A program made the translations under genes and the position numbers. The notes under the pieces were generated by a model. It saw nothing but the letters and a program-made list of their open reading frames with translations. It had not been told where the DNA came from and did not search any database. From a virus, in IMG/VR virus record IMGVR_UViG_3300034073_002739, positions 1 through 54,439 of that record: 54,439 bases of DNA. One strand, given 5' to 3'. Below are positions 464-16,655 of this stretch, one piece after another. Each line of letters opens with the position of its first letter. Position 1 is the stretch's first letter.

Positions 464-550
464 GGATGCGTAGCCAAATGGTTGACGGCAGCGGGCTGTA
501 AACTCGTGACACTAGAAACGCTGGTGGTTCGAATCCATCCGCATCCACCA
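464..550 (+). tRNA. tRNA-Tyr(GTA)
   Basis: Class II tRNA: acceptor GGATGCG with CGCATCC, anticodon GTA in loop CTGTAAA, long variable arm, T arm with TTCGAAT and encoded CCA at 548-550. It sits between two structured non-coding stretches, and its CCA starts a perfect 15-bp inverted repeat (548-562 with 617-631). Confidence 0.95.
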
Positions 551-930
551 TAGTATAGCTAATTGACTAATAAGTAGGACACCCATAGGCATAGTATGGG
601 CCAACCTCACCTGCAGTTAGCTATACTATGGCTGTTGACTGGCCCGATAAGGCACTCTAAAGCCTGAAATGGGAAAACTTATTTCTAGTCAACACCCGTA
701 ACTGCGCTGCTCACGCTGAACCTATAAACTCTAGGCTGGTGACTAGGATGGGGTCGTCCCCCGTAATGATACTGTGCCGAATAACGTAACCGGCCGAGCC
801 TAGAGCAAGCAGGGATGAGCTCCTGCATAGCTCATATGCCATGTGTATAAAGAGTAACAGAACTGGCTAAGGCCAATTCTAGCAAAAGTTCCCGCAACGC
901 TTAAATAGTCGTATCCCTAGACTATACCGC
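548..930 (+). ncRNA. Ornate structured RNA candidate downstream of tRNA-Tyr
   Basis: No convincing gene. Helices seen in order: 548-562/617-631 (15 bp perfect, 5' arm starts in the tRNA CCA) enclosing CCCATA/TATGGG; 633-642/685-694 enclosing AGGC/GCCT; 729-737/797-805 (CTCTAGGCT/AGCCTAGAG) enclosing GGGG-TCGT-CCCC; a possible H-type pseudoknot at 809-835; hairpin 859-867/872-880 (one mismatch); hairpin 905-910/920-925. The density and order are far above what ordinary spacer shows. Large ornate phage RNAs near tRNAs (GOLLD, ROOL) are known families that should be tested; I cannot assign it to either. Confidence 0.55.
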
Positions 931-3891: not shown

Positions 3892-3956
3892 CTCAACGGT
3901 AGAGTAACCGGCTTTTAACCGGTAAGCTGTGGGTTCGAATCCCCCTGCATCCACCA
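3882..3956 (+). tRNA. tRNA-Lys(TTT)
   Basis: Acceptor GGATGCA/TGCATCC, anticodon TTT in loop CTTTTAA, canonical T loop and encoded CCA at 3954-3956. The 5' end overlaps a CDS by ten bases, and the CCA begins a long trailer hairpin. Confidence 0.96.
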
Positions 3957-4016
3957 TATTAAAACATACTACTAAGAGTCCAGGTTCATAGCGTGGCATA
4001 GTGTGTTTCAATATGG
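3954..4016 (+). ncRNA. CCA-containing trailer hairpin after tRNA-Lys
   Basis: Bases 3954-3971 (starting with the tRNA CCA) pair with 3999-4016 (ending TGG) over 18 positions with one A/C mismatch and one T-G wobble; the loop is 27 nt. Same architecture as after tRNA-Leu(TAG) and tRNA-Tyr. It ends eight bases before tRNA-Ile(TAT). Confidence 0.65.
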
Positions 4017-9388: not shown

Positions 9389-9494
9389 CTATTTCATACT
9401 AGGCTTAATCCTTTTCGGATTAAGCCTAGTTATCATTCCCATTATAGGCATTGTTGTAGGCATTGTCTGGGACTATATAAAAGTGCTCTTTTAA
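9366..9494 (+). CDS. Small two-segment membrane protein, 42 aa
   Basis: Starts MVIKKLASYF and then runs almost entirely hydrophobic (LGLILFGLSLVIIPIIGIVVGIVW), one long or two short membrane segments. A holin-like or exclusion role is possible but unsupported. Its coding sequence contains a perfect 14-bp inverted repeat (9398-9411/9417-9430), and a second hairpin covers its stop. Confidence 0.45.
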   Translation: MVIKKLASYFILGLILFGLSLVIIPIIGIVVGIVWDYIKVLF

Positions 9495-9509
9495 GCCCTT
9501 TTATATAGT
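9398..9509 (+). repeat. Two perfect hairpins upstream of the tmRNA gene
   Basis: ACTAGGCTTAATCC (9398-9411) with its complement at 9417-9430, loop TTTTC; then ACTATATAAAAG (9472-9483) with CTTTTATATAGT (9498-9509). Neither has a good T tract, so they may be RNA-processing sites rather than terminators. Confidence 0.6.
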
Positions 9510-9514
9510 TGTAT

Positions 9515-9840
9515 GAAGTTAACCAAAAAGTGTCTTGGACGCGGCTATCGTATGCCGCCACCTCCACCAAAAGCATACTTCTCTGACCACAAGATGACTG
9601 GCATACCGGGCCGGACTTGGCAGAGTATAATCAACCCCAAGTATGCTTTTGATGGGGGTGACAGGATTCGACAGGGCAAAGAGTAGGGCGATGGACAACT
9701 CGACACAGAGAGTCGTAAAAAACTAAACAAAATAAACGCAAACGATGAAACGTGGGCATTAGCCGCCTAAACTCGGCTTAGGGTTTCCCCAGTTTTCCTC
9801 GTAACAGAAAAACTGGGACACAATGGCCTTTTAAGGCATT
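9515..9840 (+). ncRNA. ssrA: Permuted (two-piece) tmRNA
   Basis: The acceptor piece comes first: GGACGCGGC, a T arm GCGGC/GCCGC (9541-9558, eight-base loop), acceptor CACCTCC, A and CCA at 9567-9569. An intervening segment closes with a perfect 12-bp repeat (9569-9580/9639-9650). The coding piece starts GGGGGTG at 9654-9660, which pairs with CACCTCC, followed by ACAGGATTCGACAGGG as in tmRNA. The tag frame at 9738-9770 encodes ANDETWALAA then TAA. Hairpin 9788-9796/9809-9817 follows. Outer ends are approximate. It rescues stalled ribosomes and tags products for ClpXP-type proteases. Confidence 0.93.
9738..9770 (+). other. tmRNA tag reading frame
   Basis: Resume codon GCA at 9738, then codons for NDETWALAA and stop TAA 9768-9770, preceded by the usual A-rich stretch. 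The LAA end is the ClpX degron. It is one residue away from the tag ANDETYALAA that I recall for Neisseria-type betaproteobacteria. Confidence 0.93.
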
Positions 9841-9847
9841 TTAATTT
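9826..9847 (+). terminator. Terminator-like hairpin after tmRNA
   Basis: GCCTT (9826-9830) pairs with AAGGC (9833-9837), followed by ATTTTAATTT. Short stem; may define the 3' end of the tmRNA precursor. Confidence 0.45.
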
Positions 9848-15701: not shown

Positions 15702-16655
15702 ATGAATAAATTAAAAACTTTTCTTGATGTGGCAAGCAAATACTACTATGACGGCAATCCCGTTATTAGTGATGAGCAGTTTGATCGACTTGCAGAACTT
15801 ATTGGCTATAACCAAGTAGGAGCAGTTAGTGATGGTAACAAAGCTAAACACTATCAGCAAATGTTTAGTTTGCAAAAGTTCTATGTAAATGAAGGCATGA
15901 CTAATCCCCTAGAGGGAATTACTGAAATTAGCATGAGTGTCAAACTAGACGGCGCAGCAATCTCTATTTTGTATGTTGACGGCGAATTAGTACAAGCACT
16001 TACTCGAGGTGATGGGATTGAGGGTCAACTGATTACTGACAAAATTCTGGCTACTAGTCTAGTGCCGCACAGAATTAACTACCAAGGCACTATTCAGATT
16101 ACTGGCGAGATTGTGGCCCCAATGCATATCCCAAATGCTCGTAATTATGCAGCGGGTGCTCTTAATCTCAAAGACATTGACGACTTCAAGACTAGAGCAA
16201 TTAGTTTCTTTGCATATGGTGTGTATCCTTACCTTACGGAAACATACGACGGCGATATGCAAAAGCTCAAGCGCATGGGCTTTGGCACAGTCAAAGAGGC
16301 CGAACTAGAAAAAATTTATCCTAATGACGGTGTTGTGTTTCGTGCCAATGTCAACAAACTGTTTGACCAGATGGGGTATACTAGCAAACATCCTCGCGGA
16401 GCTTATGCTAGAAAAGAACGGGCTGATCATGTGGAGACTAAACTCATTGATGTAGAGTGGCAGGTAGGCAAGACCGGTAAAGTAACACCAGTAGCAATCC
16501 TAGAGCCGGTTATGATTGGCGATGCACAAGTTAGCAGAGCCACTCTTAACAATCCAGGCTTTATTGAAGCCTTGGGACTTGAAATTGGAGATACTGTAGC
16601 TATTATCCGTGCAGGTGAAATCATTCCTTGTGTGCTGCACAAAGTTGATGCTTAA
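15702..16655 (+). CDS. ligA: NAD-dependent DNA ligase, adenylation/OB subunit
   Basis: A 317-residue protein with an N-terminal Ia-like domain, the nucleotidyl-lysine motif KLDG at 81-84, ALTRGDG and GEIVAP further on, and an OB domain with VEWQVGKTGKVTPVAILEPV. It lacks the zinc, HhH and BRCT domains, which are encoded separately at 16743. T5 also splits its ligase in two subunits. It seals nicks during replication. The predicted mRNA has almost no leader and no ribosome binding site. Confidence 0.94.
   Translation: MNKLKTFLDVASKYYYDGNPVISDEQFDRLAELIGYNQVGAVSDGNKAKHYQQMFSLQKFYVNEGMTNPLEGITEISMSVKLDGAAISILYVDGELVQALTRGDGIEGQLITDKILATSLVPHRINYQGTIQITGEIVAPMHIPNARNYAAGALNLKDIDDFKTRAISFFAYGVYPYLTETYDGDMQKLKRMGFGTVKEAELEKIYPNDGVVFRANVNKLFDQMGYTSKHPRGAYARKERADHVETKLIDVEWQVGKTGKVTPVAILEPVMIGDAQVSRATLNNPGFIEALGLEIGDTVAIIRAGEIIPCVLHKVDA

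Follow-up and report, generated by a model that had tools for sequence, protein, structure and literature searches.

Hairpins anchored at tRNA CCA ends in a viral tRNA array: one locus and a wider family of junction hairpins

Why should a long inverted repeat begin inside the CCA end of a phage tRNA gene? The hairpin that raises this question, here called H3, follows tRNA-Tyr(GUA) in a 54,439-base viral contig (the window, meaning the whole stretch of DNA analysed), which carries 21 tRNAs within its first 12.7 kb. A previous reading of the sequence alone had described a perfect 15-bp hairpin starting in the tRNA CCA, with a smaller hairpin in its loop, and each element is confirmed: CCATAGTATAGCTAA (548-562) is the exact reverse complement of 617-631, the 5' arm begins at C74 of tRNA-Tyr (464-550), and the loop holds the six pairs CCCATA 582-587 / TATGGG 595-600. 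The full stem is 18 bp (548-565/614-631), with T563.G616 (U.G in RNA) at bp 16. Folding of 546-633 gives -35.9 kcal/mol (z -5.1; 0/200 shuffles as good), and when tRNA-Tyr and H3 are folded together they are predicted to form side by side, with the tRNA acceptor stem intact.

The array and its tRNA-Tyr hairpin

H3 is one of four CCATA...TATGG hairpins (H1-H4) between tRNA-Leu and the gene at 1142, and at positions 1-1127 tRNAs and conserved structured RNAs follow one another without spacers. The features discussed below are the following.

1-83, + strand: tRNA-Leu(UAG) (ARAGORN)
81-179, + strand: H1, junction hairpin starting at the tRNA-Leu CCA (score 13.5)
180-277, + strand: module C, noncoding; a similar stretch precedes the core RNA in locus L101 (by eye)
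278-465, + strand: H2, or module A, a conserved RNA domain of ~188 nt with an end stem of 18-20 bp (9-sequence alignment)
464-550, + strand: tRNA-Tyr(GUA), encoded CCA at 548-550 (ARAGORN; Rfam tRNA 55.1 bits)
548-565, + strand: H3 5' arm, from C74 of tRNA-Tyr (stem pairing, fold)
566-613, + strand: H3 head, including the inner hairpin 582-587/595-600 (sequence)
614-631, + strand: H3 3' arm, whose final 7 nt, ACTATGG, repeat 459-465 (stem pairing)
630-887, + strand: noncoding stretch, part of it like the region 3' of the core RNA in locus L098 (by eye)
891-1053, + strand: core RNA, conserved and structured, without Rfam match (22-sequence alignment)
1045-1127, + strand: H4, junction hairpin after the core RNA (stem scan)
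3954-4016, + strand: tRNA-Lys(UUU) CCA junction hairpin, CCATATTAAAACATACTA/TAGTGTGTTTCAATATGG (z -3.5 including the tRNA; score 13.5)
9507-9770 (region 9440-9844): permuted tmRNA (two Rfam models, 107 bits each)

Six stems in the window reach a score of at least 16, as against none in order-1 Markov shuffles of the whole window (n=5), and CCATAGT stands at or near the start of the 5' arm in three of the six (278, 548, and 1045). The description of H3 as the second of three CCA-containing trailers holds if those of tRNA-Leu (81-179), tRNA-Tyr, and tRNA-Lys (3954-4016) are meant, all of which score at least 12; a fourth candidate, at tRNA-Leu(UAA) (7350), is borderline with a score of 10. The tRNA-Tyr trailer is indeed the cleanest, scoring 15.5 compared to 13.5 and 13.5. 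Three features are absent from the sequence-only reading: 3' arms that run into G1-G2 of the next tRNA, the conserved domain at 278-465, and a separate RNA at ~891-1053.

Between tRNA-Leu and the gene at 1142, only tRNA reaches the Rfam gathering cut-off. Wider Rfam searches (the whole window at gathering score; 1-1700 and ten related loci at E<=1) returned, beyond tRNA and permuted tmRNA, weak sub-cut-off matches (ycf2, YrlA, tRNA-Sec), many of which fall on tRNAs. BLAST against phage DNA returned 112 records, the best 20 of which match at tRNAs only.

To compare the locus among close relatives, we collected related loci via two neighbouring proteins and a core-RNA pattern (31 stretches, 21 distinct). 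All four distinct relatives with tRNA-Tyr (loci L091, L093, L104, and L107, with their copies) carry a hairpin that begins at the tRNA-Tyr CCA and has the same right-hand boundary; in L104 it is of the window type, and the other three have a different stem (CCATATTGAAGCACATT / ARTGTGTTTCAATATGG) and a different head. The sequence-only reading had named loss of the repeat from relatives that keep the tRNA as evidence against it; the two distinct hairpin-less relatives, L110 and L119, also lack tRNA-Tyr, and their flanks are joined at ACTATGG. tRNA and hairpin can vanish together, precisely at tRNA-Tyr, and with a tRNA stub left at tRNA-Lys, where a loss stops exactly at the hairpin's right end. 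The array varies further upstream as well: module C is missing from locus L005, where tRNA-Leu is directly joined to H2.

Junction hairpins across phage tRNA arrays

Judged by sequence, H3 belongs to a widespread family, the "junction hairpins", in the tRNA arrays of mostly uncultured phages. The CCA-trailer anatomy given in the sequence-only reading stands, and is far more general than one window, extending to many phage tRNAs and isotypes. Their common stem form is CCATATWNRAACACATTA...TAGTGTGTTYNWATATGG. A stem of ~18 bp (in the window and most listed relatives) starts from C74 of the upstream tRNA, or else within the final helix of the core RNA; an exchangeable head closes it, and the 3' arm frequently terminates in G1-G2 of the downstream tRNA. 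The layout of the junction hairpins gives the impression of a device for concealing tRNA ends or passing them on. A literature search, whose reach mostly excluded subscription papers, turned up no account of hairpins anchored at the CCA within phage tRNA arrays.

Scanning 73 nonredundant loci (748 kb) for stems yielded 185 that score at least 14: the start lies at a tRNA 3' end in 38, the end lies at a tRNA 5' end in 17, and both hold for 10. Measured from the tRNA side in the same 73 loci, a C74-anchored 16-nt pairing with a score of at least 12 is present at 37 of 374 nonredundant tRNAs with encoded CCA, compared to 0 with shuffled downstream DNA and 1 with the arm shifted by 20 nt. Among six cultured tRNA-rich phages of our choosing (XacN1, BUCT-ZZ01, Moby, T5, RHph_TM30, and Hades), 0 of 133 tRNAs have such a stem; phage DC31, outside this control count, has one testable tRNA, without a stem. 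Consensus-like hairpin queries against cultured phages gave weak matches only, and in genome_contigs both the core-RNA pattern and a strict hairpin pattern allowing 4-30 nt in the head gave 0.

The 3' arm pattern occurs in at least 120 IMG/VR stretches. Our analysis of pattern matches covers the 80 loci listed (L120-L199), further loci having been used only in profile search. In these 80 loci, 95 of the 113 matches (68 contigs) lie within a long hairpin; of these, 54 begin at the 3' end of a tRNA and 36 stop close to the 5' end of the next tRNA. After removal of repeats and tRNA-less strands, 51 of 78 hairpins begin at a tRNA CCA, the upstream isotypes being Lys (26), Glu (9), Leu (6), Gln (4), Ile (3), and others (3). 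Heads in the listed loci range from 3 to 288 nt (median 50), and among single offsets of the 3' arm end the most frequent is +1, which corresponds to G2 of the downstream tRNA. Junction hairpins span dozens of contigs, up to 364 kb, and in the wider set most adjoin single tRNAs, far from any core RNA.

The favoured carriers are tRNA-Lys(UUU), Glu(UUC), Gln(UUG), Tyr, and Asp: tRNAs for Lys, Glu, Gln, Tyr, and Asp carry the stem in 26 of 68 cases, compared to 11 of 306 for the others (Fisher p 1e-13, for a grouping made post hoc and with shared descent ignored). Several of these isotypes are targets of anticodon nucleases.

Two further observations concern heads and insertions. By eye, a T-arm-like GGTTCGAATCC appears in many heads (e.g. 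L181, L124, L146, L197, and L198), as if these contained built-in tRNA fragments or T-loop domains. In L105 (8174-8355) and L106 (5739-5835), tRNA matches with long inserts lie immediately 3' of a junction hairpin; each insert is a possible intron or nested element.

Proposed processing role and its alternatives

Over bp 6-18 of 38 hairpins, which were selected for pairing and include related, non-independent sequences, 87% of positions are Watson-Crick paired, compared to 50% when arms are randomly re-paired. When hairpins are picked in a G.U-neutral manner, G.U outnumbers A.C by 45:17, or by 31:17 without bp 16 (one-sided p 0.03). Covariation and G.U excess together modestly favour RNA of the tRNA sense as the molecule that folds; single-stranded DNA with the same sense may fold likewise. 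From position, conservation, pairing, and association with tRNA ends, all of which can be read from the DNA, we infer a function at the RNA level: the stems would keep the CCA, and often the 5' end of the next RNA, in duplex until cleaved. We give this reading about even weight.

In such a scheme, the stem would hold the upstream CCA, and often the 5' end of the downstream RNA, double-stranded in the primary transcript. The duplexed CCA would hinder RNase P, for which the 3' RCCA is a recognition element, as well as 3' exonucleases, until a host enzyme (most likely RNase III or RNase E) cut the stem or head, or strand exchange took place, and the RNAs were released. If the next tRNA contributes its G1-G2 to the end of the 3' arm, formation of its acceptor stem would free C74-C75 of the previous tRNA, so that the maturation of neighbours would be coupled. 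If the stems do set the timing of free tRNA ends, they would add a new layer of control to phage tRNA arrays. Only about one tenth of the tRNAs bear a stem, so tRNA maturation in itself does not depend on it.

RNase III substrates have stems of ~11-20 bp, a range that includes the ~18-bp junction stems. Phage-encoded RNase III, CCA-adding enzyme, and RtcB were each found in 0 of 23 records, and since RNase III was not found there, we assume the processing enzyme to be the host's. Further points against processing are that the stem sequence is conserved beyond the needs of plain RNase III cleavage, and that heads and tRNAs are acquired, dropped, and swapped, which fits a DNA-level role too. Matches to the RNA_ligase family occur in 8 of 23 records, 4 of them above cut-off (DC31 and three other records give the clear matches), and the window has one of 23 bits, below cut-off, at 15924-16226 in a 323-aa frame; this family is too common in large phages for its occurrence to give any argument.

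That DNA-level role, in which the hairpins would be attC-like or terminal-inverted-repeat recombination sites shuffling tRNA and ncRNA cassettes, strikes us as unlikely. It would account for the attC-like build (conserved stem, hypervariable head, asymmetric mismatches), for the joint loss of tRNA-Tyr and hairpin in L119 and L110 with flanks meeting at ACTATGG, and for the tRNA-Lys loss that stops at the right end of its hairpin. Some related heads also sit after different tRNAs, although this is true of only some of the 13 multi-member clusters found among 129 heads. However, the first part of the lost tRNA-Lys remains, which resembles slippage rather than precise excision. Similar arms provide homology for ordinary recombination, so no dedicated enzyme is required. 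Phage_integrase (PF00589) was found in 0 of 22 records, which are possibly fragments, and Y1_Tnp (PF01797) in 0 of 23, where in either case a host enzyme is possible. The excess of G.U over A.C among non-Watson-Crick pairs and the exact anchoring of stems at C74 speak against recombination sites. Still harder to credit is a retention scaffold, in which the stems would tether tRNAs to a multi-domain RNA (module A and core RNA) from which they would not be meant to be released, a role already suggested for tRNAs in the GOLLD linker: the spacer-free chain at 1-1127 fits it, as does the occasional presence of tRNAs in GOLLD linkers (PMC12286853), but most junction hairpins flank single tRNAs distant from a core RNA, and compact core RNAs exist without an embedded tRNA.

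About as doubtful as the scaffold is a shielding role, by which the stem would guard the tails of phage tRNAs: a duplexed CCA would form a precursor reserve, safe from tail-cutting nucleases (e.g. Cas12a3) or host quality control and released on need. CCA-cutting immunity is known, Cas12a3 being described as cleaving tRNA CCA tails upon infection (PMC12851939); PARIS AriB cleaves tRNA-Lys(UUU), for which phage T5 brings replacements (PMC12409363). These precedents and the isotype enrichment (26/68 vs 11/306) make tail shielding possible, although that isotype grouping is post hoc and ignores descent, and release would still be required, a sequestered CCA being unable to be charged. Overlap with isotypes attacked by defence nucleases makes such shielding directly testable. 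An ordinary terminator or a chance palindrome is very improbable. Hairpins 3' of RNA genes are common, but the H3 stem is A+T-rich, no T run follows 631 (CTGTTGACTGG), and conserved RNAs lie directly downstream; chance is opposed by conservation across dozens of contigs, and by shuffles and other phages that yield none at the same threshold.

Known systems and neighbouring structured RNAs

In rRNA operons, long double-stranded RNase III stems flank or link stable RNAs; those stems enclose an RNA, whereas junction stems lie between RNAs and overlap their ends. Phage T5 has, per annotation, stable RNAs (RNAI to RNAX) without an assigned function among its tRNAs; in the T5 stretch, no CCA stem scoring at least 12 was found at the 22 tested tRNAs, and the core RNA and module A profiles gave no match at E<=1. 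Integron attC sites lie between cassettes, combine a hypervariable head with a conserved stem, and have RYYYAAC/GTTRRRY boxes. By inspection, the junction stems end in CCATA/TATGG instead, and they begin in the tRNA CCA. We lowered the standing of both the integron-like and the REP-like (Y1-transposase) readings, Phage_integrase having been found in 0 of 22 records and Y1 transposase in 0 of 23, with a host enzyme possible in either case.

A parallel can be drawn to the precursor of permuted (two-piece) tmRNA, in which a segment runs from CCA to G1, a stem includes the CCA, and tRNA-processing enzymes make the cuts (PMC11915505). The window has its own example, where the intervening segment of the tmRNA is closed by a stem (9559-9660) that includes the CCA. 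The ends joined by a junction hairpin, in contrast, belong to different RNAs rather than to one acceptor stem, and junction hairpins repeat along the array and share stem sequence; H3 itself links tRNA-Tyr to the 630-1053 stretch, separate from the tmRNA at 9507-9770. ARAGORN called tmRNA genes with the tag ANDEVFALAA in several related loci. Another resemblance is to GOLLD and ROOL, large structured RNAs near phage tRNA islands, the GOLLD linker sometimes holding tRNAs (PMC12286853). Junction hairpins differ in being short and in occurring without the core RNA, and the GOLLD and ROOL Rfam models gave no match at E<=1 in the window stretch or ten related loci.

In addition to junction hairpins, the arrays hold two structured RNAs without Rfam match, the core RNA and module A. 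The core RNA alignment (22 sequences) shows compensatory changes at 24 of 37 predicted pairs, and its profile matches 53 of the loci searched, many of these overlapping copies. It also occurs in the cultured Limnohabitans phage DC31 (PQ492658; L240:8957-9141), where it lies behind a sequence resembling tRNA-Arg and the record carries no annotation under the match, so its function is approachable in the laboratory. Compact core RNAs are also found without an embedded tRNA. The last helix of the core RNA (ACTATG 1020-1025 / CATAGT 1047-1052) and H4 are mutually exclusive, since both use the same CATAGT strand, and by eye an H4-like hairpin follows the core RNA in the distinct core-pattern loci. 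For module A (9 sequences, leaving out L072 and L053 as too divergent), compensatory changes occur at 26 of 43 pairs, and the profile matches 38 of the loci searched, overlapping copies included; a module A query against cultured phages found none. Its 3' arm reaches G1-G2 of tRNA-Tyr.

Three smaller observations, all by eye, touch the core RNA. A head resembling that of H3 (ACTAATAAG.AGGA...CCTCACCTG) follows it in locus L105. Its loops CCCTA and TAGGG (~914-919 and ~1033-1037) hardly vary, complement each other, and may form a kissing loop. In L096, L102, and L109, a type-I hammerhead-like motif (CTGATGA, stem II, GAAA) lies just upstream of the core RNA; its pairing, fully formed in L109, requires a bulge in L102 and a wobble in L096, and the Rfam hammerhead search scored only L096, below cut-off. 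The predicted cleavage site in L109 lies ~14 nt before CCCG, and cleavage there would release the core RNA on its 5' side, making the motif another apparent processing element in these arrays.
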